Shown here piece by piece: positions 1,200 to 32,085 of a stretch of DNA of 32,735 bases. The notes beneath the pieces were generated by a model, which was given only the letters and a program-made list of their open reading frames with translations, did no database searches and had not been told where the DNA came from. The first letter of the stretch is position 1. Every line of letters begins with the position of its first letter. The stretch lies in assembly GCF_000192795.1 (NCBI RefSeq), contig NW_007360657.1, positions 4,442-37,176 on the forward strand. The letters are read 5' to 3'. Both the position numbers and the translations under genes were made by a program. The DNA comes from Vavraia culicis subsp. floridensis (lineage: Eukaryota; Microsporidia; Pleistophoridae).

Positions 1200-2000
1200 A
1201 TTATGCGTTTACCGAAGATAATGTTCTGCATGATGGAAGTCACATGTAACATTGGTTCGAGATGTGATTAATGAAATTTTGGTTCCGGAATAATGTCAAA
1301 AAACACGCTCTGGAGATACTTCTTCAACATGCTGCTTGCCCAAATAATTGAAGTACAAGCGCCGACTTGATTCTATTCGCGGTGGATGCTGAACAGCGGA
1401 AATGTTTCTCACCATTTTCGACAATATGAAACATACCATATTCATGGCTAAGTTAAGAAGCGTAGTCATTCAAGAACCGCACCGATGACAGCAAGATAAG
1501 AACCATCACGAGCATTTTTTGTTTCCACAGAACGATTTCGCGTGAATGGAACATATATATGGAAAACAGGTCATGCCATTGCATCTCGAAACGATATTAA
1601 GAGCTACAGATATAGCGTCACACACCGATTTCTCGGTTGACTAATGTAGCTTCTTTCCCGATGATGTTGCATATTAATACATCACCAAACGTTTTGTTGT
1701 GCTATATCCATGGATTGGTGAGTTGATAGTAGAACTTTTGATAGCATGGTGTATGGCTAAACATGAAGTAATGGCCGAGCAGATAGAAGATGCCTGCTAA
1801 CAAAATTGTTGCATGTGAACGGCATATCACCATAAACTTATCTTGGCATAACTTGTTCGGCAGATCAAAGGACTGGATGCCGGTGAATAAAAAATTCTTT
1901 TTTATATGGGGTGAACGATACAGAGTAGAAATTGGTGATATGGTAATTACATGTTTATAGGTGCATGCGGTCGTTTCCGACCTAATATATGCAAATATAG
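1200..2000 (-). other. Possible old coding relic, unidentified
   Basis: One minus-strand frame stays open for about 100 codons from near 1998 to a TAG near 1705, and the same frame continues to about 1200 with only around six further stops. That is fewer than expected for DNA this AT-rich. It contains peptides such as NKLCQDKFMVICRSHATIL and YGMFHIVENGEKHFRCSAST, and the segment is slightly richer in G+C than its surroundings. No start, promoter motif or recognisable domain was found. It could be a strongly decayed gene or a chance open frame. Confidence 0.25.
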
Positions 2001-6936: not shown

Positions 6937-8613
6937 TTAATCGTTTTTTTGTATTCTGGAGAATAAATATGAAAAGATATGATCGGTGGTGCGTACATGT
7001 GCATCTCTGTCTATGATTTCTTTATAATCCTTTGATTTGAAACTGTGAGTCCATTGCGTCTCCACTATTTCGGCACCACCACACTCTAACACGCGACGAT
7101 ATGATCCGAGCCGTGACTTCACACAGAAAAGCTTGACCCGCCATCCTGAAAAAGGAAGTCGGTGTGACTTCCGAATTAAATCCCGCCAATATTTTACGGC
7201 TCTTACGATTTTTTTGTCTTTTTCATCAGCATCTTCCTCTGTCCACATCAGGCTGCTCAAATCGTTATCTGCAACATCCGGTTTGATAATAGGTATGCCA
7301 CTCACCATAGCACACAAAAATTTTTCTGAAGTTGCTAAGTTTGCCGATATAAGATGCGTAACACCCTTCATCTGTTCATTCTCCATATATTTGATATTGA
7401 GTGCGTCTAACTTCATCTTCAGTTTAGCCTTGAGATCTGGCGGCAAACCAGTGAACTGAACAACAATCTCCTTTTCCATATTGTATGAAACAGTTTGCCT
7501 GGTGGGCAACCTCAGAATGCATATCCGTTCTTCACATTTTTTCATCAAATACAGGCACTTATCAATCCATTCCTTACTCACACACTTAGCGTTCTTCCTC
7601 AATTTTTCATGTTCAGTAACGAAGTGCGTAACGGTATAGTCATATTTATCTTTGATTCTGCCACCCATGGCACGTATTTTGTTGTTTATTTCTTCGTTGT
7701 ATTTGGTGGTCACAATAAAGGTGCATCCTTCCAGCACTCTAATAGGTTTGGCACTGTTGTTCTGGAAGAGAGCAGGAAGCAAAAGTTCGCCGTTTTCTAT
7801 GCAATGAAATATGAATTCGAAGGAAAGATCGTTCTCTGAAATCACGTAATCCGTGTTTTTTGCACCATGTGAAAGTCTAAAACCGCCATTTTCTATTATC
7901 AGCTTCTTCAAGTGATGTATCAGTTTTTTTGACAAATAATCGCTGTCCAAATAAAATATCTTATCCTTGAATATCTTTGCATCATTTCCACTCATTTCTA
8001 AATGCGTTTTCCCATCTAGGTCTTCACCACAACTTGCGCTTTGTGCCAATTCTTCTCTGTTCTGTGCATCTTTCCTCTTGTGCGCCGACATGTCTCTGAG
8101 TGCGAATAACCAATTTTTTTTCTGGAATTTCCTATAATTATTTCTAAATACATCTGATGTTCGTATCACAGGAATACCGTATTTATCCGCAAATTTCTTT
8201 CGCTCATTTTCACCGTCCGCTATCAGAAAATCAAGATCAATTCGCATATTTTCCACATAAACTGCGCCCTGGCATACAAAATAGTTTTTAAAGATCGGAT
8301 TGTTCACATCTTCAATTGTAAATTTCATGTTCTGGAACGGTGTTATCAGGAATGATTTAACAGGAACGTGTGTGTTGTACAAGAACGATATGTGTATTAT
8401 AGGGATGTTCCACTGCAAGGCACATATGTACTTTTCGCTAAAAGTGGGTCTGCTCACGACCAAGTACGATGTTGATGTCGTCAACGTTCTAGTGAGTGTG
8501 TAATGCCTAGGAACATTTTTTTGTAAGAATTCATATTCCAAGAGTGTAATTCCGGATAATGTTATTACTACCTGTGTCGGTTGAGAGCTTTGGATTGTTA
8601 GAGGAAGTGTCAT
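6937..8613 (-). CDS. Six-BRCT-like repeat protein, Rtt107/Brc1/PTIP type
   Basis: Encodes 558 residues from an ATG at 8613. Six BRCT-like modules can be discerned at about residues 10-85, 105-158, 215-283, 293-362, 383-447 and 487-558. Signatures include the THFVTEHE and CVSKEWIDKC pattern of a classical BRCT core in module 4. Module 5 has THLIS followed by SEKFLCAM, and module 6 has the GW opening and LECGGAEIVE. The pairing of modules 5 and 6 resembles the C-terminal tandem BRCT of Rtt107, Brc1 and PTIP, which binds phosphorylated H2A. Those proteins also carry four N-terminal BRCTs, but yeast Rtt107 is about 1070 residues, so this would be a compact version without long linkers. Expected role: a nuclear scaffold in replication-fork and DNA-damage repair. 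A Dpb11/TopBP1 relationship is the alternative. It is divergent with the interrupted frame at 8559-9029. Confidence 0.85.
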   Translation of the reverse strand: MTLPLTIQSSQPTQVVITLSGITLLEYEFLQKNVPRHYTLTRTLTTSTSYLVVSRPTFSEKYICALQWNIPIIHISFLYNTHVPVKSFLITPFQNMKFTIEDVNNPIFKNYFVCQGAVYVENMRIDLDFLIADGENERKKFADKYGIPVIRTSDVFRNNYRKFQKKNWLFALRDMSAHKRKDAQNREELAQSASCGEDLDGKTHLEMSGNDAKIFKDKIFYLDSDYLSKKLIHHLKKLIIENGGFRLSHGAKNTDYVISENDLSFEFIFHCIENGELLLPALFQNNSAKPIRVLEGCTFIVTTKYNEEINNKIRAMGGRIKDKYDYTVTHFVTEHEKLRKNAKCVSKEWIDKCLYLMKKCEERICILRLPTRQTVSYNMEKEIVVQFTGLPPDLKAKLKMKLDALNIKYMENEQMKGVTHLISANLATSEKFLCAMVSGIPIIKPDVADNDLSSLMWTEEDADEKDKKIVRAVKYWRDLIRKSHRLPFSGWRVKLFCVKSRLGSYRRVLECGGAEIVETQWTHSFKSKDYKEIIDRDAHVRTTDHIFSYLFSRIQKND

Positions 8614-11836: not shown

Positions 11837-11850
11837 CCCCCCTCCACCCC
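11837..11850 (+). promoter_or_regulatory. C-rich promoter motif of the SANTA gene
   Basis: A nearly pure pyrimidine run of C (CCCCCCTCCACCCC) ends four bases before the ATG at 11855 and is preceded by TTTTA. It is the clearest CCC-like microsporidian start motif in the window and fixes the start codon. Confidence 0.65.
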
Positions 11851-11854
11851 AAAA

Positions 11855-13408
11855 ATGCCAATAATACCCAACACAGACATTCTAAACCGTGGCAAATTAA
11901 AAAACCTGCCTAACTACAAAATATTTCGTCTCAGACATCCCCGTCTCGTCGCCCATAAAACATTACATAACTGGTCGTTCAAGCTTATCAACAAGAATAG
12001 CACATATAAAGTAATAGTGATGGGATATATCAACGATAATACGCTGATACAGACTTCTTTTATAGAAAATGCCAATTTTAACGTAGTGGTAACAGAAAAT
12101 TGCACCGTTTATAAGGTGGAACGGTTTACGGGAGAGTTACCCCATCCATTGTTTGACGAGAGTTTGCTTGTGCTTTTTAAGGACGGTTTTCCGGCTAATT
12201 GGAAAGAAATTATAGAGAGGGAGTGTGCTAAGATAAAGAAACAGGAAGGTGTTGCCGAGAATGAATGTAATTTTGATGATTTACTGATGAAAAACATGAG
12301 TAGAGAGAAGAATGAGGAGGAGGAGTTGGAACGTGCTAAAGAGAAGATCTTTCTCAATTATTTGAGTAAATTACAGAAAGATGATAATGAGATAAAAAAG
12401 GACAAGAAAGGTGTCGAGAAAAAAGACAAAAGGAACGATCGGAATGGCAGGCAAATTGTGGAGGAAAGAGAAAGTGCTGTATCTGGAAAAGAAGGACATG
12501 AACACGACGTGAAACAAAGTAAAGATATGAGAAAGAGCCATTCCGATTGTAAATTGAGAAACGATCCTTTAAAAGTTGTGACAGCTTCCGGGAAAGAAAA
12601 TGAGAAATTGAAAAACGAGAAAAATATGATGAGCAGAACTCTGTCAAACGAGAATGTTATTAACAACGAAGCATATGATACAGATAAGAGCAGCATATCA
12701 CCTCATAATATCAAGAAGAGCATAAGGTTAAGTATTGCGGTGAAGAAAGGTACGGCTACAATGTCAAAGCTATCTAAAGCCATTGAAAGTACTGAAGTAC
12801 GTAAAGATGAAGTTAAAATAGAAACCGTTGACGAGTGCAGCGCGAATGGCACAGCACCAGAAACAATGAAGGACACGAGTGATAGCTTCGCTCTGATTTC
12901 ACAGGGCAAGTCAAAATATAGCGGTGAGAAAGCAAAAAGAAACTTGAAGGATCGGATGAAAGAAGAAAATGAGGTGGAGAAGGCGAAGAAAAGAGAACCT
13001 AAAAGGTCACAAAGCAAATTAAAGGGTAAAACGGTAATAAACGATTATTGTTCTGCTGAAAAGATTCCCTTAAAGCAAATGGAGTCGATTGATTTCAAAG
13101 CGCAAGGTGGTAATCTTAACAATTCGTGCGAAAAAGAGGAAGAATCGGCGACAATAATTGATACAAAAATGAAGGACATGAGTAGGAAGGTCAGTGTTCC
13201 AATGTGGAATAAATATTCAAGGGATGTGACTAAGAAACGAAATGATGACAGCATAGTAGAAGACATCGCTGACAATACCGATGAAATAATAAAGGGAGAT
13301 AAAAATAAAGAGAATGAACCAACAGTCAGCGCTAGTTCAGCACCGAAAAAAAGACCTGCTGCAAGAAGAAAAAGGAACCGTTTAACCATGCCAAAGGGAT
13401 TTAGATAG
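11855..13408 (+). CDS. SANTA-domain protein, KNL2/Mis18BP1-like centromere factor candidate
   Basis: Encodes 517 residues. Residues about 36-122 match the SANTA domain pattern: an opening LHNWSFKLI with the key tryptophan (W40), a V-x-V-x-G-type strand (VIVMG, 53-57), a TS-x-I strand (67-70), a TVYKV strand, and the ending LFKDGFPANWKEII (107-120). The hydrophobic-GFP-xx-W-K signature is characteristic of KNL2/M18BP1 SANTA domains. The remaining 390 residues are highly charged, lysine/glutamate-rich and probably disordered or coiled (123-170 helical). They end in a basic tail with RRKRNRLTMPKGF, which faintly resembles a CENP-C motif. Known family role: loading or licensing of the centromeric histone CENP-A on chromatin. 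No SANT/Myb repeat is evident. The C-rich motif just upstream supports the start, and AATAAA follows 51 bases after the stop. The domain call is by pattern only. Confidence 0.75.
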   Translation: MPIIPNTDILNRGKLKNLPNYKIFRLRHPRLVAHKTLHNWSFKLINKNSTYKVIVMGYINDNTLIQTSFIENANFNVVVTENCTVYKVERFTGELPHPLFDESLLVLFKDGFPANWKEIIERECAKIKKQEGVAENECNFDDLLMKNMSREKNEEEELERAKEKIFLNYLSKLQKDDNEIKKDKKGVEKKDKRNDRNGRQIVEERESAVSGKEGHEHDVKQSKDMRKSHSDCKLRNDPLKVVTASGKENEKLKNEKNMMSRTLSNENVINNEAYDTDKSSISPHNIKKSIRLSIAVKKGTATMSKLSKAIESTEVRKDEVKIETVDECSANGTAPETMKDTSDSFALISQGKSKYSGEKAKRNLKDRMKEENEVEKAKKREPKRSQSKLKGKTVINDYCSAEKIPLKQMESIDFKAQGGNLNNSCEKEEESATIIDTKMKDMSRKVSVPMWNKYSRDVTKKRNDDSIVEDIADNTDEIIKGDKNKENEPTVSASSAPKKRPAARRKRNRLTMPKGFR

Positions 13409-14000: not shown

Positions 14001-14006
14001 TTTATT
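14001..14006 (-). terminator. Polyadenylation signal overlapping the stop codon
   Basis: On the minus strand AATAAA includes the TAA stop of the LRR-like gene (stop at 14004-14002). Such tight 3' ends are common in microsporidia. Confidence 0.4.
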
Positions 14007-16836
14007 CGTTCAGATCAGCAGTTTCATTTGTGGACTCGATAATCTTCAAGCTTATCGGATCAAGATAATAAATTACGTGCCCAGACTTGTATGCAAAGAA
14101 ATCGAGCGAAGTAAACTCTAAATATTCGCACAGTGTACGAACCATTTCCGCTAGCGTCGATGCTTCATTGATTTTGTTGTTTTCGAAGAGTTCCTCACCA
14201 AAATTAGGATGGTGTATCACAAGTCTCCTTATTCTCAGTTTGTCTCTCACAATCTCAGTGAGCAGCTCATCCTCAAACTCGTACAGCGGTAATTCCAAGT
14301 TCTTAAGGTTTTTCGGTAACGAGAGCAGAAACTGGGGGTCTCCAAAAATATAATTCGTTGAAATGAAGGTTTCAAGCTGGTGGAAAGTCGATAAGTACGC
14401 GTTGGAAGGATCTTTTATGCGCGTCATGTCTGTTTCTTGTTCGTAGCCTTGGCAAAGCTTCAAATACTTCAGCATGGGGAAAGAATGTTGGAAAATAGCG
14501 GATAAAAGCCAGTAAGGGCACAGAACAAGCCGTTCCAACAGATAATGGAGATGTATTTGATGAAAATTATCATATGTGATCGCAAATCCAGACAACTCCA
14601 TTTCATATATGTTTGTATTTGCATGCTCTGCAAGTACAGAACATAAAAATTCATTAATTTTAGTGTTTCTCTTCCAATGAATATGTTGTGAATTACTGGT
14701 AGTTCTGCTGTGTGTGTTGTTGTGCGGTTCCAGAGGGTATGCCACTTCATGTGGCATACCATCACAGCTATCTATGCTGCCCAGCATATAAGTACCAGCA
14801 TTCTCGCTCATCTCCTGAAGTGAATGCCAAAGATGAAACCTTTCCATGTTTCTACATGTTTTAACCAACTTCTCCAACACACAGGTGTTGACATAGTTGT
14901 ACCGTATTTTAAGAATCTTCACCGTATCCAAACATCGCGGAAAAACAAGAACTAAATCATCAACACCATATGTACTGAGGTCAATGTTAGTCAAATTTAT
15001 GATATTAGACAAGATTATGCGTGCATAACAGCCATTAACGACTATCTTTTCACAGCGCGTATTTACTTCTAGACTTGAATTTCTCTCTACGATTATACGA
15101 TCTAATATCAGCGTAGATACGTCTTCTCTAATCTTAATCGTATTATTAAACACAAATTTTCTAATTTCTAATGCGCTTGTTCCTTTGTTCATTTCATACC
15201 TGAGCGACATTCCCCTGTTAAACTTGCCTTTGTAGTCCAATAAAATATTAGAAATATCAAAAAGACCAGAACACTTATTAATCACAATCTTTTCCATTGT
15301 CTCAGCTATAACCAGTCTACTCGATACACTCACGTTTATCAATGAGATGTTTGTAAAGGGCAGCGTTACCTCCTGGTCTATTTCGACACTTTCCATTCGT
15401 AAGCATGCGCTATTATCGATGCAATGGACAAATTCCAACGCACAACCATCTGTTTCCGGCAGAACAATATCGCTCAACCCTGTTCTCTTCGGCAGGGAAT
15501 AATGGCCAGGTGTTGACACCACGTCAATCGCCCTGATATTCTCATTTATTCTCAACACAGATCCATTTGATAGAACGCTATTCTTCAACGCAAAGCACTC
15601 GATATTATCGGGCAATAAATAATCATTTAGGAATTTTAGATTGGTTAGCCTCAATTCTTTGACATTGGCCGGTAACAATTGCAATTTTTGAAATTTGTAG
15701 GCATCGCTATGAACACACACATGTTCTGTATAATATGACAAGGCCTGCACAAGACGAAGCGAGCAATTTACGAGAATTATTTTGGTAAATTTTTTTGATA
15801 GCGGTATCTCGAATAGGTCTTGTGGGCAGTCACCGCCATGAACATAAAGTATTATGTCTGTGACACTGTCGCAATTTAAGAACTGTGATGCCAAGGTATT
15901 ACGAACCATCTGTTCAACGATGCGTTCATCAGACATATTCGATTTTCGTTTTACAACTTCCAAATTTACCGTTACAATCAGTGAGCAGTCATCAGCGAAC
16001 TTTTTGTGAAGTAATTGCTCATTTTCGATGAGGTATCTGTAATTTATTTCAAGCTCGCTGATGAGATATCCTATATTCAGATCCTTGAGGTCGAATTGCC
16101 ATTCAAGCTTATTGCGGCTCTGATTTTCGGGTGATACTGATGTTTGGAAATCATCGTCTCGCAATGTAAAGCACATCTCTGATTGAACGGCACAACGTAG
16201 TACATTTAAATCGATGTTTGTTTGCAAAGGCCAGTTGTCCATTCTCAGTCTCTTGGTCGGTTGGCCATTTTCAGTGCCTTTTTCTTCATCCAGGCACCGC
16301 AGCTTGTACAGGGAGTTAGGTATGCTTTGAAGTACCTGACAAATATTAAAAACTGCTCTTTTTTCCTTCATAAAATACCAAAACCAGTTTAACAAAATCG
16401 TATGAAGATCTTTTATCGTGAAGATCATCTCTGATCTGTTTCGCATCATATCAACAATTTTCTCGCACATAACTCTGGTCATCGGGAGCCTTACAATTCT
16501 ACACGATACTAATATCTCCTTCACTACCACGTGTCTGTTTGGGAATAACTTCATTTCTTTTTTTAAAGCAATTTTAAACTGCTCTTCTCTGGATCGTATT
16601 CTCCGGTTATTTAGTGCGCTCCTTACATGCTGCTCCGGTAAAAACTCATCGTAATGATCGAACAAATTTAAAAAATCACCAATTTTCTCCAAAGCACCCG
16701 TATCCATGTCTCTATTTAAATCGAATAGTGCATCGTAAGCTACATACTCGTATAACGGTGCATCACTTTCTTCCAAACAAAACCGTAAAAACAAGTTTGT
16801 TGTCAAATGTGTCACATGGCCTATGTTATAAAACAT
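14002..16836 (-). CDS. Large leucine-rich-repeat-like protein, paralogue A
   Basis: Encodes 944 residues from the first in-frame ATG at 16836. The N-terminal 300 residues are helical and precede a long series of irregular LRR-like beta/turn units (KIILVNCSLRLVQAL; NVKELRLTNLKFL; MEKIVINKCSGLFDI; CEKIVVNGCYARIIL; LKNLELPLYEFED). A helical block around 114-171 (IVRLPMTRVMCEKI; FNICQVLQS) and a block around 251-268 (KDLNIGYLISELEINYRYL) match the gene at 24527-27367 at the same residue positions, so the two are paralogues of nearly equal length. No clear signal peptide or transmembrane segment. Function unknown; such LRR families in microsporidia are lineage-specific and are thought to mediate protein or host contacts. 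The upstream ATG at 16855 is out of frame. Confidence 0.85.
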   Translation of the reverse strand: MFYNIGHVTHLTTNLFLRFCLEESDAPLYEYVAYDALFDLNRDMDTGALEKIGDFLNLFDHYDEFLPEQHVRSALNNRRIRSREEQFKIALKKEMKLFPNRHVVVKEILVSCRIVRLPMTRVMCEKIVDMMRNRSEMIFTIKDLHTILLNWFWYFMKEKRAVFNICQVLQSIPNSLYKLRCLDEEKGTENGQPTKRLRMDNWPLQTNIDLNVLRCAVQSEMCFTLRDDDFQTSVSPENQSRNKLEWQFDLKDLNIGYLISELEINYRYLIENEQLLHKKFADDCSLIVTVNLEVVKRKSNMSDERIVEQMVRNTLASQFLNCDSVTDIILYVHGGDCPQDLFEIPLSKKFTKIILVNCSLRLVQALSYYTEHVCVHSDAYKFQKLQLLPANVKELRLTNLKFLNDYLLPDNIECFALKNSVLSNGSVLRINENIRAIDVVSTPGHYSLPKRTGLSDIVLPETDGCALEFVHCIDNSACLRMESVEIDQEVTLPFTNISLINVSVSSRLVIAETMEKIVINKCSGLFDISNILLDYKGKFNRGMSLRYEMNKGTSALEIRKFVFNNTIKIREDVSTLILDRIIVERNSSLEVNTRCEKIVVNGCYARIILSNIINLTNIDLSTYGVDDLVLVFPRCLDTVKILKIRYNYVNTCVLEKLVKTCRNMERFHLWHSLQEMSENAGTYMLGSIDSCDGMPHEVAYPLEPHNNTHSRTTSNSQHIHWKRNTKINEFLCSVLAEHANTNIYEMELSGFAITYDNFHQIHLHYLLERLVLCPYWLLSAIFQHSFPMLKYLKLCQGYEQETDMTRIKDPSNAYLSTFHQLETFISTNYIFGDPQFLLSLPKNLKNLELPLYEFEDELLTEIVRDKLRIRRLVIHHPNFGEELFENNKINEASTLAEMVRTLCEYLEFTSLDFFAYKSGHVIYYLDPISLKIIESTNETADLNE

Positions 16837-16857
16837 TTGCTTGTGCAGCAATCATTT

Positions 16858-18578: not shown

Positions 18579-19562
18579 CTACTCACTGCGATGATTCTTT
18601 ACCTTATAATTTACCAAATCCAACTTAAACTTAGCATATTTGAAGTAATCAAAGTCTTTTTCTTTGGTTTGACCCTTTAGTAACGCCCAAAGGCCCCAAT
18701 AGCAATGAGAAACCGGTATAAAAACATTAACATCCTTCAGAAAGTCATCAATTATCTTATCATTTACCGTAAACCCTGAGTACATGTACGTCCTAATAAA
18801 CTCTTGCTTAAAACTCTCGCTCGGCATTTTGCTCTTATCAAACGAATACCCAACGTACTCGGCAAAGTGGTTGGCAACATCGTATGCGGTGTAGTTTGGA
18901 CCCGAATATTCGAAATCTATGAATTGCACCTCATCAACTTCATACATAGGACGGGCACTCGTTTCGGATATAGAACTTATAACCAAGTCTTTCTCACACA
19001 CAGGGCTGTTCAGTATAATTATGTTTGAAGCCAGAAGATCGTTGTGGCAGAACCCGACTTCACAGTGCTTAACTTTTCTCTCCGTTTCTATAATGAAATC
19101 GTAGATGTTGTAATTCTCCAGCATGCTGTTGTGGTGCACGTGCGCCTTCCAGTACCAGTCCAGCATTGTTTTGAACAGTGTTGGCACACCTGAACTTTTG
19201 ATAGTGTGCCATTTTCTCATTTTCCGTGCAATCACTTCGTAATGTGCCTGAATCTCTACTTCCTGGAGCTCTTTGCCGGGTATATAATCGATTATAAATC
19301 CATTCTCGTACGATGCCATGATACGAGGTGCCAGTCCGTACGTATGAAGATACGAAATGTTAGACTTTTCAATTTCTCGGTTGATGAAATCGCTCGTATT
19401 TTTTCCGTAAATTTTGGCCACAACTTTATAATCATCGTTTGTACAAAATAGCGTGGTATTTGTCTTACCAGATTTAAACTGCGTAAGCTGCCAACGCCCT
19501 TCTTTAATAGTTTTTAGCAACTCCATAATCTTCTTTTTGTCATCGTTTGTGTTTCTGTTCAT
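18579..19562 (-). CDS. Ethanolamine/choline kinase
   Basis: Encodes 327 residues. It would phosphorylate ethanolamine (or choline) with ATP, the first step of the CDP-ethanolamine/CDP-choline (Kennedy) pathway, in the cytosol. Visible features: an N-terminal GKTNTTLFC loop equivalent to the nucleotide-binding GGxTN region (32-40), VVAKIYG with the probable ATP-contacting lysine (47-53), and the Brenner-type catalytic motif CHNDLLASN (172-180) with D174. The family motif VQFIDFEYSGPNYTAYDVANH (about 212-232) supplies the metal-binding D215, and HCYWGLWALLKG (286-297) is typical of the C-terminal lobe. The VAKIYG/FIDFEY pattern and modest length fit ethanolamine kinase somewhat better than choline kinase, but specificity cannot be settled from sequence. 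The start has a minus-strand AAACCC about six bases upstream. The length is close to the family's usual size. Confidence 0.92.
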   Translation of the reverse strand: MNRNTNDDKKKIMELLKTIKEGRWQLTQFKSGKTNTTLFCTNDDYKVVAKIYGKNTSDFINREIEKSNISYLHTYGLAPRIMASYENGFIIDYIPGKELQEVEIQAHYEVIARKMRKWHTIKSSGVPTLFKTMLDWYWKAHVHHNSMLENYNIYDFIIETERKVKHCEVGFCHNDLLASNIIILNSPVCEKDLVISSISETSARPMYEVDEVQFIDFEYSGPNYTAYDVANHFAEYVGYSFDKSKMPSESFKQEFIRTYMYSGFTVNDKIIDDFLKDVNVFIPVSHCYWGLWALLKGQTKEKDFDYFKYAKFKLDLVNYKVKNHRSE

Positions 19563-21724: not shown

Positions 21725-21891
21725 TTTGTAGTCATACCGCAAAACGGTACTCAAGGTCGACGTACATAAATTTAACGGATTTATACATCCCTGGTGGATG
21801 ACAAGTTGATCAAACCTTTCCAATTTGGACTGCTCGGATGGCTCGCTGCCAATGGTTCGTGCTTCAGCAATTCATAAAAAGGGGATTATCG

Positions 21892-21899
21892 CACCCCTC
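21892..21899 (+). promoter_or_regulatory. C-rich start motif of the CPBP-like gene
   Basis: CACCCCTC ends three bases before the ATG at 21903, the same arrangement as before the SANTA gene. It is the main reason for preferring this ATG over the in-frame ATG at 21852. Confidence 0.45.
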
Positions 21900-21902
21900 T
21901 TA

Positions 21903-22613
21903 ATGCTCTACGGTCGCAAACTAAAATTTGCACTGAATGTCCTCATTCCATTCATCTTCATCCACATAAAAAACGCTGCGTTATCCTATTACCTCAAAAA
22001 ATGCAAGCCTGCTCGCGAGCCTCTTTTCCGAACTATCAACACAGCAGCCGATTTTATAATTATGTCCCTTTCGTTCATTGGCGGCGTATTCGTGTACCGT
22101 AAGTTGTTTATCAGGGATTTTAAGTTCATTAATCGGAACAGAATGCTTTGTATGCTGGCTCTTTCGTTTGCGCTCGTCCTTACTTTTGTTAAGCTGCGCA
22201 TGCACCGTTTGTTTTTCTCCGAGTACCGGATATGTCTAAACGCACGAAAAAGGTTGATAGAGTACTGTGAGATGTTTTTCGAGAAAATTGTGATGTTTCC
22301 ATGTCTTGACGAGCTCGTGTTCCGCAAGTATCTCTTCGGTGATATAAAAGGAGACAAATGTTTCAATAATAATGTGAGGGAAAAATCCGTTCGGAACACA
22401 ACATACGTGCTCCTTTTTGCACTTTTTAATTCCGTTGTCTACGGACTGACATACTGTGCAATTTTTGGGTTTAATTACGACAATTTATTTCAGTTTTTTT
22501 CGTATGGAATGTGTTTGTGCATAGTTTATGATGTTACGTGTTTTTCGGTTTGTTTAGCCGTAAGGATGTGTTATGGTGTTATATCTGCGTTTGGAGAGGT
22601 TGTCTTCATTTAA
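21903..22613 (+). CDS. CPBP/Rce1-like membrane protein with altered catalytic motifs
   Basis: Encodes 236 residues from 21903, or 253 if the in-frame ATG at 21852 is used. Several hydrophobic segments predict a multi-pass membrane protein (LNVLIPFIFI; IIMSLSFIGGVFVY; MLCMLALSFALVLTFV; YVLLFALFNSVVYGL; FFSYGMCLCIVYDV). Counting from 21903, PCLDELVFRKYLFG at about 133-146 corresponds to motif 1 (EExxxR) of the CPBP family, with the first Glu replaced by Asp and the Arg kept (R141). LLFALFN at 170-176 aligns with motif 2 (LLFGLAH, i.e. FxxxH) but has Asn for His. CIVYD at 206-210 aligns with motif 3 (HxxxD/N) but has Cys for His. CPBP proteins include Rce1, the ER protease that trims prenylated CAAX proteins. 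Loss of both histidines suggests a non-proteolytic homologue or a diverged mechanism. AATAAA lies 24 bases after the stop. Confidence 0.7.
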   Translation: MLYGRKLKFALNVLIPFIFIHIKNAALSYYLKKCKPAREPLFRTINTAADFIIMSLSFIGGVFVYRKLFIRDFKFINRNRMLCMLALSFALVLTFVKLRMHRLFFSEYRICLNARKRLIEYCEMFFEKIVMFPCLDELVFRKYLFGDIKGDKCFNNNVREKSVRNTTYVLLFALFNSVVYGLTYCAIFGFNYDNLFQFFSYGMCLCIVYDVTCFSVCLAVRMCYGVISAFGEVVFI

Positions 22614-23706: not shown

Positions 23707-24526
23707 GCATGATTATCTCCAAATACCACATTGAATAATATAACAAGTATGGAAAATGAACTATAAAGTTCTGGTTGGTTAATTAAATTTTTATACTTTT
23801 TATTGGTATGTCACGAAATACTGCCTCATCCAAATCTAATGTAGCAGCAGCAGTTTTTTGAACCAAACTTGTAAATTATGTAATTGAACTTGCGTGAACG
23901 TGTTAACCAGTATTTTTTCTGTTTCTGTATTCCGAACTTACCTATTCCATTATCTACCAACTTGTATATTCCAATATAAGAACTTTCACAAAACTAGGTT
24001 CTATTATTTGTCTTACGCTATAACTAGCGATAACATTCTTCATTGAATGGGTATTGCACACAATGTAGTACAGTACAGTCTGACAAACACTTTATCATAA
24101 CGCAATACTTCGTTTAAGTTCCTCATTTGTGTATAGTAAGAAGTCATAAAAAAATTAGTGATACTAATTAATTTTGTAAATATTCAGGAGGTGTATTTCT
24201 AGACAAGCCGTGCTGTAAATACAAACAAATAATCAAAATGACAGGTTGCTGCAACGTATTCGTTCAAAAGCAAGCATTATAAAGTTATCGCTTTCTTAGC
24301 AGCGAGTTTCTAGTGCAAAATAATGTAGCGAATAAACTACAATTTTAGCTGCAATAGTCAACAAATGTATAATATCACAGTATTATTGAGATAGTTCACC
24401 ATGTTTTAATTCACTTATTAAGTCAAATTGTATTTAAAATTAAAATAACCTATTTGGGAACAAAATATGATTTGCCTTTAAAATGTTAGTTTAAGCTATT
24501 TATTGAACCAAAATATCCTTCAAAAC
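23707..24526. other. Gap upstream of LRR-like paralogue B
   Basis: Very AT-rich. No supported ORF, RNA gene, repeat or C-rich start motif. No TATAAATA octamer was found near the following ATG. Confidence 0.4.
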
Positions 24527-27367
24527 ATGTTGATAACTTCATTATATGATTATGTTACCGTGGCTGTCGTATATATATTTGTATTTCAATCATGGACAGA
24601 GGAAGGAAATAATGAGTACATGGTAATTTATAACCTGAGAGAAACAAATATGATGGAGTTTTTAAGTTCTTTGGAAGCAGGCACGACTAGCTTCAACTAC
24701 AATATTCAGGAATACGGTCAGAAACAACATATTTTGGGAATTTCCGAGTGTGCCGAAGATGTTCTGCTGAATAGTACAGCAGTACAATTTCTGACCAAGA
24801 ATCAAACAAAAAGAAACTATTCTAGTTACCGTGATTATATACTGGCGAATAACGATACAAGCAAAAGGTTTAAAATTGTGAATATGCCATTTAAAAAATC
24901 ATTATTTGAAAAAATTATGACTTCAACAAGTGATAACATTAATACATTTTCTTTAGAGGAAATGCGATGCATATTTCAGAAAGTGTTTTTTTGTTTGGAT
25001 CGTAACGAGGGCATGGCATATAACATATGCATGAATTTGCAAGATGATCAACAAGCATTAACTTCTTTGTTTGATCCAAATGAGGAACTAAGATTTATCG
25101 AGCCATATTATTTAACCCAACTACAAAGAAATCAATGTAATTCTCTCATAGTTTTTGAAAAATTTAAGGAAATTGTAAACCATACTACCGAATTATACCT
25201 GACAGATGGTCCAACTTGTGTAGCTAAAGTTTATGGCGAAAAGAAGAAGGCAATAACCGTGGGAAAGTATATACCACTGAAGGAATTCAACTTAGGATTC
25301 TTATTCGAGTGCCTAGAAGTGACATCTAGTTATCTGTTCGATAATGCGAGTGAATTTTACGAAAAATTTAGACATGATTATCTTAACAATAAGCTAATCA
25401 TATTTGTAAATGATCGATGGCCATTAACCAGTGTTTTGACCACGTTGACGGGTGATATGTTTGTAACACCAGCTTTGTCCTGGATTGAAAGGCTAGATTT
25501 ATGGGAATCAGGTCGTATAAAACGTCTCACTTATCGAGTGAAACCTTACAAGTCATATTTGAGTAGTTGCACAGAATCCGGTGTAGTTTCAACCAATAAT
25601 ATCTTTTATGCTAGCTTTTCAATAGACTTTGTGAAGTCAGTGGCTCAGCCAATAAAAAACACAGTAGTGTACCTGAGGAATGTCTTGGACATAGGTGTTT
25701 ACAAGGTTATGGATGGTGTCGATTCGCTGAGATGTAAAGAAGTAGAATTACAGAGCGATTTTGTATTCGAAAACGATTTTAAGTCTGTCCACCTCTATCT
25801 TTGTACGGTAAAAAAAGAATCCGCTATTATATTTCAAAATAAGTGCCAAGAGTTGAAATTATGTCAGACAATTGGACAGTTTTACTTGTCAGGAATGGCC
25901 GGATTTAACAGCATTTATTTGAAGAGCGACAAATCGAAATTGTTTTTTCGTATAAATTATCCTAGAAGTCCTAACAGATGCAAATTAACCGAAGCACTAG
26001 TTAAAGGAACGGTTAATGTTGATCAAAGTATTCAGGCAATAACCTTCTACTATGTTGAAGTTACCGATAATATCAGTATAATTGTTGAAGATAAGCGTAA
26101 AACCGTCGATATCAGCCAAACAAAGGGCAATCTGAAATTTTCAGGATTTTTGAATGTCAAATTACATTTCAATTGGCAGACTAGTCTAAAAATTAGACCA
26201 TACGGAAATTCGTTCAGCAAATTCTCGCTGAAAAAGTGCCATATCACCGAACAAATCAAGCTAATGGATGAATTTCGTTGGATTAAGCTGTTGATGGTAA
26301 AAGTTGACGATCATTCAGGCCTTATCATAAACAACAACTGCAGAAAATTGACAATATCAGCATGTGAAGGTATTTTCGATCTTTCAGGCCCGAAATGCTT
26401 TGATGAAATCGAGATTGATTTTTCAATAGCATCAACAAGCAAATTTACACTCAAAGGCCCAATTAGAACAAATATTCTAGTTTTATACGACATACCGAAT
26501 AATGCTGCTGATATCTCTGATTTCTTTAACGAATTTGAGACGATAAATCGCCTGGTGATTGGTAGTTACAGATTAGATAACTCACAATTGTTCAATTTGG
26601 AGTATCATTTAACAAATCGATACAAAATTTACGGATCGCAGGAAAATATTGGTTGTGAATCAACAAATAATTCTTTTGAACAACCCATTAAATCGACGAT
26701 AAAAACAGTCAGAGAATCAAACCAGGCAGTAGATGAGCTTTTGACCGCTATCTTCGGCTCATATGCCATATCAAAAATTAAGGAGTTGCATTACCACGGA
26801 GTTCTTATGAGCAACTGTAATTGCAAATATCTGAAAAATCTACACAACCTGCAGACACTTCAAGCCAGCTTAGAAACTGCAGGGAAAGAATCGTTTATTT
26901 ATCTGCCAGAAAGTCTTAAGCTGCTAAATATGAGCAATTCGTCCGTAGCGAGTGATGATCAAGATCAAATTATCGCCAGTTGTGTTTTGAAAAACTTTCC
27001 AAACCTGAAAGCATTGGTAATTGATGGAGCATTTTTCAGTGATCCATTTCACCTATGTTTCTTGCCCCATTCCATCGATGTATTGGTAGTATCGTACAGT
27101 GAATTCAGGAATGAGAGAATTAGAACAGACGTACCGAAAATTAAGCTGTCTAAGTTATATGTTTCGGCCTTACGGGATATGATTGACAGTGGAACACAGA
27201 ATCCAAATGAGCAGCTCCGTAATTTCTTACAAAAAATGTTTAATTATATCGACCGCGATTATCTCCAATCCCTAGTGTTCTTAATGCACCAACGCCAATA
27301 TCAACTTAATTCTTCAACTCTTTGCGTTACACGTGTATATCACCAAGAATTCGACGTTAATATGTGA
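24527..27367 (+). CDS. Large leucine-rich-repeat-like protein, paralogue B
   Basis: Encodes 946 residues from the first ATG. The N-terminus has a short hydrophobic run (YVTVAVVYIFVF, about 9-20) that could be a signal peptide or anchor; an alternative ATG at 24620 would remove it. A helical region with EKIMTSTSDNINTF and YNICMNLQD (about 117-173) and KEFNLGFLFECLEVTSSYL (about 252-270) align with paralogue A at almost identical positions. The rest is a run of irregular LRR-like units (CQELKLCQTIGQFYLSG; CRKLTISACEGIFDLSG; LHNLQTLQASLETAG; LPESLKLLNMSNS; FPNLKALVIDGAFF), each with a strand and a loop. Identity between the two is low, so the duplication is old or evolution is fast. The function is unknown; binding of proteins, possibly host or spore surface factors, is inferred only from the LRR character. 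Confidence 0.85.
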   Translation: MLITSLYDYVTVAVVYIFVFQSWTEEGNNEYMVIYNLRETNMMEFLSSLEAGTTSFNYNIQEYGQKQHILGISECAEDVLLNSTAVQFLTKNQTKRNYSSYRDYILANNDTSKRFKIVNMPFKKSLFEKIMTSTSDNINTFSLEEMRCIFQKVFFCLDRNEGMAYNICMNLQDDQQALTSLFDPNEELRFIEPYYLTQLQRNQCNSLIVFEKFKEIVNHTTELYLTDGPTCVAKVYGEKKKAITVGKYIPLKEFNLGFLFECLEVTSSYLFDNASEFYEKFRHDYLNNKLIIFVNDRWPLTSVLTTLTGDMFVTPALSWIERLDLWESGRIKRLTYRVKPYKSYLSSCTESGVVSTNNIFYASFSIDFVKSVAQPIKNTVVYLRNVLDIGVYKVMDGVDSLRCKEVELQSDFVFENDFKSVHLYLCTVKKESAIIFQNKCQELKLCQTIGQFYLSGMAGFNSIYLKSDKSKLFFRINYPRSPNRCKLTEALVKGTVNVDQSIQAITFYYVEVTDNISIIVEDKRKTVDISQTKGNLKFSGFLNVKLHFNWQTSLKIRPYGNSFSKFSLKKCHITEQIKLMDEFRWIKLLMVKVDDHSGLIINNNCRKLTISACEGIFDLSGPKCFDEIEIDFSIASTSKFTLKGPIRTNILVLYDIPNNAADISDFFNEFETINRLVIGSYRLDNSQLFNLEYHLTNRYKIYGSQENIGCESTNNSFEQPIKSTIKTVRESNQAVDELLTAIFGSYAISKIKELHYHGVLMSNCNCKYLKNLHNLQTLQASLETAGKESFIYLPESLKLLNMSNSSVASDDQDQIIASCVLKNFPNLKALVIDGAFFSDPFHLCFLPHSIDVLVVSYSEFRNERIRTDVPKIKLSKLYVSALRDMIDSGTQNPNEQLRNFLQKMFNYIDRDYLQSLVFLMHQRQYQLNSSTLCVTRVYHQEFDVNM

Positions 27368-29646: not shown

Positions 29647-32085
29647 ATGCTATTATATTTCATCATAATCACAAGTTCCTTTGTGGTTATTATTCTTATT
29701 TGTAGGCCCAAATTCATCCATAGGACAAGTACCAACGATGCACTAGTAAAAAGAGTCATACCAATGGATAGTGTTAGTGATTGTGAAATGGATTACAGCG
29801 GTATAACAGTTACTACGCCAGACTTAAAGGATGCAGCCCTAAAAACTACTCCCATATCAAATTTTAATGATAATTTCTGGAAGGTTAATGAAAGCGTTGA
29901 CCATAGCTTTCACACCAATTATACTGGAATAGATGAAAACTTCAATAATTCATCCGAGTACAACGATCTTTGGCGATATAACACAGATATTATTCATAAT
30001 CATTCAAGCTACCATAATAGGAAACCATCTATTTATGAAGATTTGACAGATGTTGGTGAGCGTTCTCAACCAAGAAAATCTTGGCCTGAGTCAAAAGCCA
30101 TGAAATATCCTGTAAAACAGAGTTACATAAACCATACAAATGAAATAAAATGGAAGGAATTTAAAGTTTCACGGTATGATCAGCAAGCAAACAGTAAAAA
30201 AGATATAATATCAAAAACAGCAGATGTTGAACATGAAACGAGTGCTGGAACTGAGTGCAGTTTGGCAAAATTAAGGGGTGAAACAACTGGGTTGAACATG
30301 ATGAGCGAAAATGTAACGAATAATGATGAAATTAAAGATACAAGAAATACGAAAGATTCAACTTTGGACCATAATGTGAATGTGCATGCTGAGCATCACG
30401 ATAATTCTATTCAAACTGGAAGAGATAACCCCGATATAAACTGTGCTTCACAACCAATAGGCTTAACTACCAGTGATTATGAGCAAGCATCAGATTCTAG
30501 AAATGATGAAAAGAAGGTACGCACTGAGATTGTAGCAAATATCTCCGGTGCTGCGAATCCAAGAGAAGCGCTAAACACGAAAAACATTGAAACTACGTTG
30601 GGTGTAGAAAATGTATTGCAAGCTAAAAACGAAAAAGCGGAAAAATCTACTATCATTGTCAATATAGCACCTGCAAACACTGCAAACACGGCAAACACTG
30701 AAAACACTGAAAACACTGAAAACACCGAAAACACCGAAAACACCGAAAACACTGAAAACACTGAAAACACTGCAAACACTGCAAACACTGCAAACACCGA
30801 AAACACCGAAAACACTGAAAACACTAGTGACACGAAAAAACCCTCACTTATTGATCAACCATCGCTAGACGAACACGGTCACGATAAATATAAGAGTCAA
30901 CCGATAGCTTCTGAAGTAGAAAAACCAGTCCATGTTGAACCAAGTGGACCGGAGGACCGATCAACAATTTTAAAGGCAGGAGACCCTATTGATGCGAAGA
31001 TACCTGATGGCCAGAAAAGCGGAATTAGTGAATATGCTTGTATTCCTCAAAATCAGCTGCCAACACGTAATTTGAAAGATAGAAAGCATTCGATCATGCA
31101 TATATTACGTTCTGAAGGCAAAGATACGGCGGAGAAAACACTTAAGGAGCAAATACTCGAAAAAAAGGCTCAGCTGAGAAAAATAGAACCTAATCGATCA
31201 TCACAAGGAAAGTATAATGAAAACTCTACGAATGACATAGTTGAAGCTGCAAAAAATCTCATACATGTGGAAAAGGAAAAAGAAATAATGATCGACAAGA
31301 GAAAACCAGCAGATTATGGCTTTTGTACCAAGAGAGTAAGGGACGTGGAAACATCATCATCTGAAAATTGTGAGAAAATTGGTATAGAACAAAATAGTAA
31401 TGTAGAAAGTTGCTGCGTGAAAATGGTTCATCCAGATGTCGTTAAAAACGAAATTCCTATCTCATACACCAGCAATGAGGCGCACACCCAGACCAACGTT
31501 AAAATGTGTGCCAGAGCCGAAGAAATCTCGAATAATGTAGCAGAAGGCAACCACTCGAATGCAGTAGCCCAGTATCCAAGTTTAGTGGAATTTTCTCAGA
31601 CTTTTTCACCCAATTCACACGAAGATCCACTTCAAAATAAATATAATTTTGCGAAAAAACTTCAAAAGTTTGAGATCAATGATAAACGCAATGTTTCTAC
31701 AAAGTCTGACAAATTACAACCGATACATAACATTCCAGTGTTCATCTCTAGAATAATATCACCAGAACTATCGAATCGCCATGCTTTAGGTTCGTTATCT
31801 ACCATTATAGAGGAATTCGATGAATATGCGGTTAATAATCCATATTTTCTTGACTTCATAAAAAACTACCTGAAGTCCAATCAAGTGCTTGTTGGCCCGC
31901 TGGATACTCTAAAAGTGAAAAAAATCTTTGTTTACAGAAAAGAAAAAACGTGTGGACCTGTAGACCAATACAAATATAATGATAAGATCAACGAAGAATG
32001 TAAAAATAAACGAGTCGGAACTTATAGAGACAATGCATACTTGGAAACAAACAATACAAACGAAATACAGACTTGGCTTTCTTGA
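29647..32085 (+). CDS. Membrane-anchored or secreted protein with tandem A/E-N-T repeats
   Basis: Encodes 812 residues. Residues 2-19 form an uninterrupted hydrophobic segment (LLYFIIITSSFVVIILIC) followed by basic residues, so the protein is a type II-like anchored or secreted protein. The body is long, polar and rich in N, D, E, K, S and T with little predicted order. A block of 17 tandem tripeptides (ANT or ENT) lies at residues 343-393. After it come charged segments with some helical propensity (KDTAEKTLKEQILEKKAQLR, about 500). The C-terminal region about 665-765 looks folded (FISRIISPELSNRHALGSLS; NPYFLDFIKNYLKSNQVLVG). I do not recognise a family. The many Thr and Ser residues could be O-glycosylated as in microsporidian spore-wall or polar-tube proteins; this is inference. 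TATAAATA lies 21 bases upstream. Confidence 0.8.
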   Translation: MLLYFIIITSSFVVIILICRPKFIHRTSTNDALVKRVIPMDSVSDCEMDYSGITVTTPDLKDAALKTTPISNFNDNFWKVNESVDHSFHTNYTGIDENFNNSSEYNDLWRYNTDIIHNHSSYHNRKPSIYEDLTDVGERSQPRKSWPESKAMKYPVKQSYINHTNEIKWKEFKVSRYDQQANSKKDIISKTADVEHETSAGTECSLAKLRGETTGLNMMSENVTNNDEIKDTRNTKDSTLDHNVNVHAEHHDNSIQTGRDNPDINCASQPIGLTTSDYEQASDSRNDEKKVRTEIVANISGAANPREALNTKNIETTLGVENVLQAKNEKAEKSTIIVNIAPANTANTANTENTENTENTENTENTENTENTENTANTANTANTENTENTENTSDTKKPSLIDQPSLDEHGHDKYKSQPIASEVEKPVHVEPSGPEDRSTILKAGDPIDAKIPDGQKSGISEYACIPQNQLPTRNLKDRKHSIMHILRSEGKDTAEKTLKEQILEKKAQLRKIEPNRSSQGKYNENSTNDIVEAAKNLIHVEKEKEIMIDKRKPADYGFCTKRVRDVETSSSENCEKIGIEQNSNVESCCVKMVHPDVVKNEIPISYTSNEAHTQTNVKMCARAEEISNNVAEGNHSNAVAQYPSLVEFSQTFSPNSHEDPLQNKYNFAKKLQKFEINDKRNVSTKSDKLQPIHNIPVFISRIISPELSNRHALGSLSTIIEEFDEYAVNNPYFLDFIKNYLKSNQVLVGPLDTLKVKKIFVYRKEKTCGPVDQYKYNDKINEECKNKRVGTYRDNAYLETNNTNEIQTWLS
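30673..30825 (+). repeat. Tandem repeat, 17 units of 9 bp
   Basis: In-frame coding repeat of the unit G(C/A)AAACAC(T/C/G). It encodes three Ala-Asn-Thr, eight Glu-Asn-Thr, three Ala-Asn-Thr and three Glu-Asn-Thr tripeptides. The order A3-E8-A3-E3 and the clustering of ACC versus ACT threonine codons point to duplication of multi-unit blocks rather than single-unit slippage only. Confidence 0.95.

Follow-up and report, generated by a model that had tools for sequence, protein, structure and literature searches.

The window, that is, the whole stretch of 32,735 nucleotides that was analysed, contains on its forward strand an open reading frame that runs from an ATG to a stop codon and encodes a protein of 517 aa. 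The first-pass annotation had placed a gene at exactly this position, which we confirm. The features of the locus are listed in Table 1, together with three histone genes from elsewhere in the assembly that are discussed below. The reading frame is preceded by a C-rich stretch and followed by an AATAAA hexamer. In E. cuniculi a CCC-like motif is reported immediately 5' of most coding starts, where 5' UTRs are shorter than 7 nt, and an AAUAAA signal has been reported as well (PMC2803860). The two features are compatible with a genuine microsporidian gene, although neither is proof of one.

Table 1. Features of the SANTA-domain gene, in positions of the window, followed by the H3-type genes as located in the histone search of the assembly
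Feature	Position	Strand	Residues	Remarks
C-rich stretch CCCCCCTCCACCCC	11837..11850	+		Ends four bases upstream of the ATG; similar to the CCC-like start signal of microsporidia
Whole ORF	11855..13408	+		SANTA-domain protein, KNL2/M18BP1-like; homologues of 517, 517 and 538 aa
Pre-SANTA segment	11855..11959	+	1-35	PxTDILNxGxLxxLPxYxIFRLRHPR; conserved among homologues; 21/35 identical to P0003
SANTA domain	11960..12211	+	36-119	Pfam PF09133; only match in the assembly; human Mis18BP1 chain 9r6h
Post-SANTA segment	12212..12373	+	120-173	Mostly helical in a model with pLDDT <50; 16/54 identical to P0003
Charged, fast-changing tail	12374..13360	+	174-502	74/329 identical to P0003
C-terminal basic peptide ARRKRNRLTMPKGFR	13361..13405	+	503-517	6/15 identical to P0003
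AATAAA	13460..13465	+		Begins 52 bases beyond the end of the stop codon; may be a polyadenylation signal
L002, H3-type gene	1477-1896	-		Canonical
L003, H3-type gene	1483-1929	+		H3-like tail; loop 1 two residues longer than in L002
L004, H3-type gene	1426-1860	+		Divergent tail and core (alignment)

In a Pfam search the 517-aa protein matched the SANTA domain (PF09133) over residues 36-119 and profile positions 2-92 of 92, with 25.7 bits (E=1.7e-5) against a curated cut-off of 21 bits; the first 145 residues, searched alone, scored 29.1 bits (E=1.4e-6). Two of the nine sequences in this search represented the 517-aa protein, and the remaining seven, all other ORFs of the window, were without a SANTA match; two of these seven strongly matched families of their own (BRCT and choline kinase). 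When the SANTA profile was run against all six frames of the whole assembly (5,626,998 bases), a single match at E<=10 was returned, ORF 11855-13408 itself, with 30 bits. The lack of a significant SANTA profile match was one of two findings that the first-pass annotation had named as refuting its assignment, and the match is significant, lies above the cut-off, covers the full profile and is the sole one in the assembly. The strings that it had quoted as the SANTA signature are likewise all found in the translation: LHNWSFKLI (37-45), VIVMG (53-57), which is the V-x-V-x-G strand, TSFI, TVYKV and LFKDGFPANWKEII (107-120).

The published description of the domain gives GFx7FxxGFPxxW as the end motif and VxLxDW as the N-terminal motif (PMC9210943). 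Here the end motif reads LF-x7-F-xx-GFP-xx-W at residues 99-116, with leucine in place of the first glycine, and F100, F108, G111, F112, P113 and W116 do not vary across the four aligned sequences, a set in which three members are closely similar. The N-terminal motif is half kept: in KTLHNW (residues 35-40) the leucine and tryptophan are retained, while the valine and aspartate are replaced. In a search of solved structures with the single sequence, human Mis18BP1 ranked first without reaching significance (E=0.15). With a profile built from three N-terminal pieces (the window protein and the homologues P0001 and P0003), the SANTA domain of human Mis18BP1 again came first, now with E=2.2e-4, and the runner-up had E=0.5. 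On the profile matches and the end motif, membership of the SANTA family is well supported.

A protein search returned three homologues among 89 candidates, and a search starting from the most distant of them, P0003, returned the identical three proteins among 145 candidates. A further search, with the N-terminal alignment, scored none of 1011 candidates at E<=10, but its length rule shut out even the known homologues, and its result carries no weight as to absence. P0001 and P0002 are 517 aa each (98 and 99% over residues 1-145), and P0003 has 538 aa (55% over the same residues). Automatic annotation already detects the domain, for two of the three homologues come with a precomputed PF09133 label. 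Within the SANTA domain 51 of 84 residues are identical to P0003. The comparison gives the impression of a tail that has drifted behind 120 conserved N-terminal residues, a first impression only since it depends on one distant homologue. The tail had been described as long, charged and basic. Its length and charge are borne out, with 87 K/R and 73 D/E among the 388 residues from 130 to 517, but at a net charge of +14 it is just mildly basic.

Residues 174-502 are probably disordered. The AlphaFold2 model of the full 517 aa has a mean pLDDT of 34 and, as 510 of the 517 residues fall below 50, is no proof of that disorder. In the model of residues 1-135 (mean pLDDT 52, of low confidence) the chain forms five strands from residue 37 onwards and then two helices (102-109 and 116-131). 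Fold searches with these models had no SANTA structure among the matches listed, and the low confidence of the models means that these searches carry little weight. A predicted fold unrelated to SANTA was the second finding that the first-pass annotation had named as refuting its assignment, and models of such low confidence speak neither for nor against it.

The extreme C-terminus is conserved between the window protein and P0003. The former ends in RNRLTMPKGFR and the latter in RVLFTVPKRFK, and T-x-P-K-x-F-[KR] is common to both at the exact C-terminus. Both also contain R-x5-P-x-x-F there, with an arginine or lysine at the position expected for tryptophan. Six aligned CENP-C-type motifs share R-x4-P-x-x-[YFW]-W; the arginine shared with P0003 lies six residues before the proline, as against five in these motifs. 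In a motif scan the strict CENPC core R-x4-P-x-x-[FYW]-[FYW] was absent from the window protein and from P0003. A loose pattern, R-x(3,5)-P-x-x-[FWY], is found a single time in the tail of the window protein, right at the end. Among 20000 shuffled tails it occurred anywhere in 926 and within the last 15 residues in 22, figures that are a guide only because the loose pattern was picked after the sequence had been seen. The peptide may possibly be a degenerate CENPC-like peptide; that it is simply a nuclear localisation signal is roughly equally probable.

In Arabidopsis, chicken and frog the CENPC-k motif of KNL2 is reported to be important for centromere targeting, and in Arabidopsis its arginine and tryptophan are both required; betaKNL2 and mammalian M18BP1 are described as having no CENPC motif (PMC9210943). 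CENPC-k therefore does not define membership of the KNL2/M18BP1 family. The SANT/Myb domain is described as present in animal members, absent in plants and not universal in KNL2/M18BP1 (PMC13294675); the window protein had no match to it at E<=10 in the Pfam search. In a variant of the explanation that we prefer below, the protein is a KNL2 homologue whose C-terminal peptide is a nuclear localisation signal only. It would reach the centromere by means of its remaining parts, like betaKNL2 and mammalian M18BP1, which do so without a CENPC motif. The odds on this variant seem to us about even. The peptide is rich in K/R, has an arginine-proline distance of six in place of five and is without the last tryptophan of the motif, on which Arabidopsis alphaKNL2 depends (PMC9210943), all of which suit a plain localisation signal; on the other hand, its T-x-P-K-x-F-[KR] end is kept in P0003 while the preceding tail is not, and few shuffled tails carry the loose, post hoc pattern in their last 15 residues.

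We also searched the assembly for the setting in which such a protein would act. The genome had been taken to be microsporidian, and this is borne out by a phylum marker, the microsporidian polar tube protein PTP2 (E=9.3e-70). The phylum was tested via PTP2 because a microsporidian SSU rRNA model gave no match in the assembly (five of 122 first-look candidates were scored, and nine of 14 controls matched). Ndc80 is present (E=2.5e-28). The histone search gave 11 matches, seven of them over the cut-off, and when the translations were read three proved to be H3-type genes (L002, L003 and L004). An extended loop 1 is often seen in CENP-A, and L003 and L004 are therefore both CENP-A candidates. 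Among the best 60 of 176 matches of L004 to solved structures, all were named H3 or H3 variants and none CENP-A, which is not decisive. The three H3-type genes compare with two H3 genes reported for Encephalitozoon (PMC10158259).

Searches for partners of KNL2 gave less. Mis18 (PF03226) had no match in the assembly and none in 14 control genomes, and the search for Scm3 likewise returned nothing in the assembly or in any control genome; since the controls were also silent, these results do not establish absence. One candidate for the CENP-C cupin domain was rejected, as its 13 bits fall short of the cut-off of 29, its frame is interrupted by a stop and eight of the 14 prokaryote controls gave similar matches below the cut-off, which marks it as noise. 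Two DNA patterns for the CENPC core matched the assembly 4 and 27 times, fewer than the backwards-pattern controls (11 and 32), and none of the 4 and 27 matches examined lay in a convincing gene. The W-W form of the core was covered solely by the narrower pattern, and of its four matches one had an in-frame stop and three had no aromatic residue before the tryptophan. Two of the 27 matches were in stop-free frames of at least 100 codons; L032 (138 aa) has no resemblance to CENP-C, and neither has L040 (129 aa), in which the first motif residue is a serine.

The complete SANTA domain, its conservation, the profile match to human Mis18BP1 and the presence of Ndc80 and of divergent H3 genes suggest that the gene encodes a microsporidian KNL2/M18BP1 homologue that helps to load CENP-A, a reading to which we give a probability of about 0.72. 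Counting against it are the missing strict CENPC core, the lack of a SANT/Myb match, the outcome of the partner searches, the non-significant match of the single sequence to Mis18BP1, the poor structure models and the small number of homologues, three, that the searches reached. A KNL2/Mis18BP1 candidate is what the first-pass annotation had proposed, and the proposal finds support in the SANTA profile match and in the three-sequence profile that reaches human Mis18BP1; from these we infer the centromere role, that is, the step from a SANTA protein to a licensing factor. A KNL2/M18BP1-like protein would mark existing CENP-A chromatin, and new CENP-A would be added there. By homology to the frog and plant proteins, a KNL2-like division of labour can be envisaged: the SANTA domain and pre-SANTA segment would bind an inner-centromere partner, either CENP-C or the protein itself, the long charged tail would bind DNA without sequence preference, and the conserved C-terminal basic peptide may contact the nucleosome, replacing a full CENPC-k motif. 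In frog the SANTA domain is reported to bind CENP-C, in plants SANTA domains have been modelled to pair and C-terminal parts to bind DNA, and CENPC-k is described as binding the CENP-A nucleosome (PMC9210943, PMC13294675).

The protein resembles vertebrate M18BP1/Mis18BP1 in its SANTA domain with a GFPxxW end and in its profile match to human chain 9r6h; it differs in that no SANT/Myb match was found. Human Mis18BP1 is about twice as long. In the window protein the SANTA domain starts at residue 36, and there is no long preceding region such as the Mis18-binding one described for mammals (PMC9210943). With plant KNL2 it shares the N-terminal position of SANTA, the lack of SANT/Myb and a charged C-terminal part that is possibly DNA-binding (PMC9210943, PMC13294675). 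Plant alphaKNL2 has CENPC-k and betaKNL2 does not; here the strict motif is absent and the loose R-x5-P-x-x-F stands at the last residues. In the published description, SANTA domains are given for plant and animal KNL2/M18BP1 and CENPC-k for chytrid KNL2 (PMC9210943). Set beside the chytrid protein on that description, the window protein is missing the full motif. Shared ancestry with chytrid KNL2 is likely, as both would be KNL2 proteins of the fungal lineage.

A true SANTA protein may also act away from the centromere, as a general nuclear scaffold for chromatin or DNA in which SANTA self-associates and the charged tail binds DNA. Such a tail is suited to general DNA binding, the recognised CENPC core is missing, and no Mis18 or CENP-C partner was identified in the assembly. 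Targeting of Arabidopsis alphaKNL2 is reported to be unimpaired by deletion of SANTA (PMC9210943), so the domain alone is no proof of a centromere location. We nonetheless regard this explanation as unlikely, for the SANTA proteins with described roles act in CENP-A/CENH3 assembly (PMC9210943, PMC13294675), plant betaKNL2 is reported to be centromeric despite having no CENPC-k (PMC13294675), and the retention of a single SANTA gene by such a small genome would fit an important role. It is very improbable that a strand-rich domain with no relation to M18BP1 has come to resemble SANTA by chance or convergence. In favour of this are the modest scores (25.7-30 bits), the lack of significance of the single-sequence PDB match (E=0.15) and the low-confidence model, which retrieves no SANTA structure among the matches listed. 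Against it, the full-length match exceeds the curated cut-off and is the only one in six frames of 5.6 Mb, and it is joined by the profile match to human Mis18BP1 and the GFPxxW signature.

If the protein is indeed a KNL2/M18BP1 homologue, we may speculate further that Microsporidia have a pared-down form of CENP-A licensing, in which a single KNL2 without Mis18, SANT or a full CENPC motif is enough, SANTA, the pre-SANTA segment and a shortened C-terminal nucleosome peptide sufficing, and in which the CENPC peptide and the C-terminus of CENP-A have changed in concert. The final tryptophan is missing from this KNL2-like protein, and no canonical CENP-C motif turned up in our limited searches of the assembly. 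We hold this extension to be doubtful.

In the literature that we searched (main texts, with few subscription papers) no described microsporidian KNL2/M18BP1 was found; a Drosophila paper names both microsporidia and M18BP1, but in separate places. CenH3, CENP-C, NDC80, MIND and SPC105 parts were reported for E. cuniculi in 2006 (PMC1557759), and microsporidian CenH3 transcripts were met as contaminants in 2014 (PMC4359364). Epigenetic centromeres were argued for E. cuniculi/Encephalitozoon in 2023, the passages concerned giving no positions (PMC10158259), and in 2026 regional centromeres were proposed for Microsporidia sp. MB (PMC13174016). The latter paper cites PMC10158259 for point centromeres, which the relevant passages of PMC10158259 do not say. 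According to this 2026 paper, 'centromere complex assembly' components had not been reported in microsporidia before; under that term it lists INO80, YTA7, MIS16 and MAM1, with CENP-A found separately (PMC13174016); its main text does not mention KNL2 or Mis18. In a term search, KNL2, Mis18 and microsporidia were also unmentioned in the main text of a kinetochore comparison from 2017 (PMC5579357).

The window protein is thus probably a new member of the KNL2 family, in a lineage with none described in the literature searched. If so, an early fungal lineage retained the KNL2 branch of licensing, which is not known from the model yeasts, through genome reduction, and some of the ancestral machinery for licensing centromeres would persist in this microsporidian. 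A KNL2-like protein would also provide a handle on the centromeres themselves, since microsporidian centromeres could be mapped directly by ChIP of this protein and of CENP-A.

Several other ORFs of the window could be described. A 558-aa protein at 6937-8613 (-) has five BRCT stretches (Pfam BRCT E=7.2e-27; RTT107_BRCT_5 E=1.4e-7) and is probably an Rtt107/TopBP1-like DNA-damage scaffold. Two proteins of 949 and 954 aa, at 14002-16851 (-) and 24503-27367 (+), have no Pfam match over the cut-off and are distantly related to each other (identical in 158 of 810 aligned columns, E=6e-9); we would read them as a leucine-rich family specific to the lineage. A choline/ethanolamine kinase of 327 aa lies at 18579-19562 (-) (Pfam E=9.8e-55). 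At 21825-22613 (+) there is a membrane-like ORF of 262 aa with a weak match, below the cut-off, to an Rce1-like CAAX protease (E=0.0048). Inside an 812-aa ORF at 29647-32085, a 9-base repeat is present 17 times at 30671-30825 with 93% matches, and it codes for ENT/ANT tripeptide repeats.
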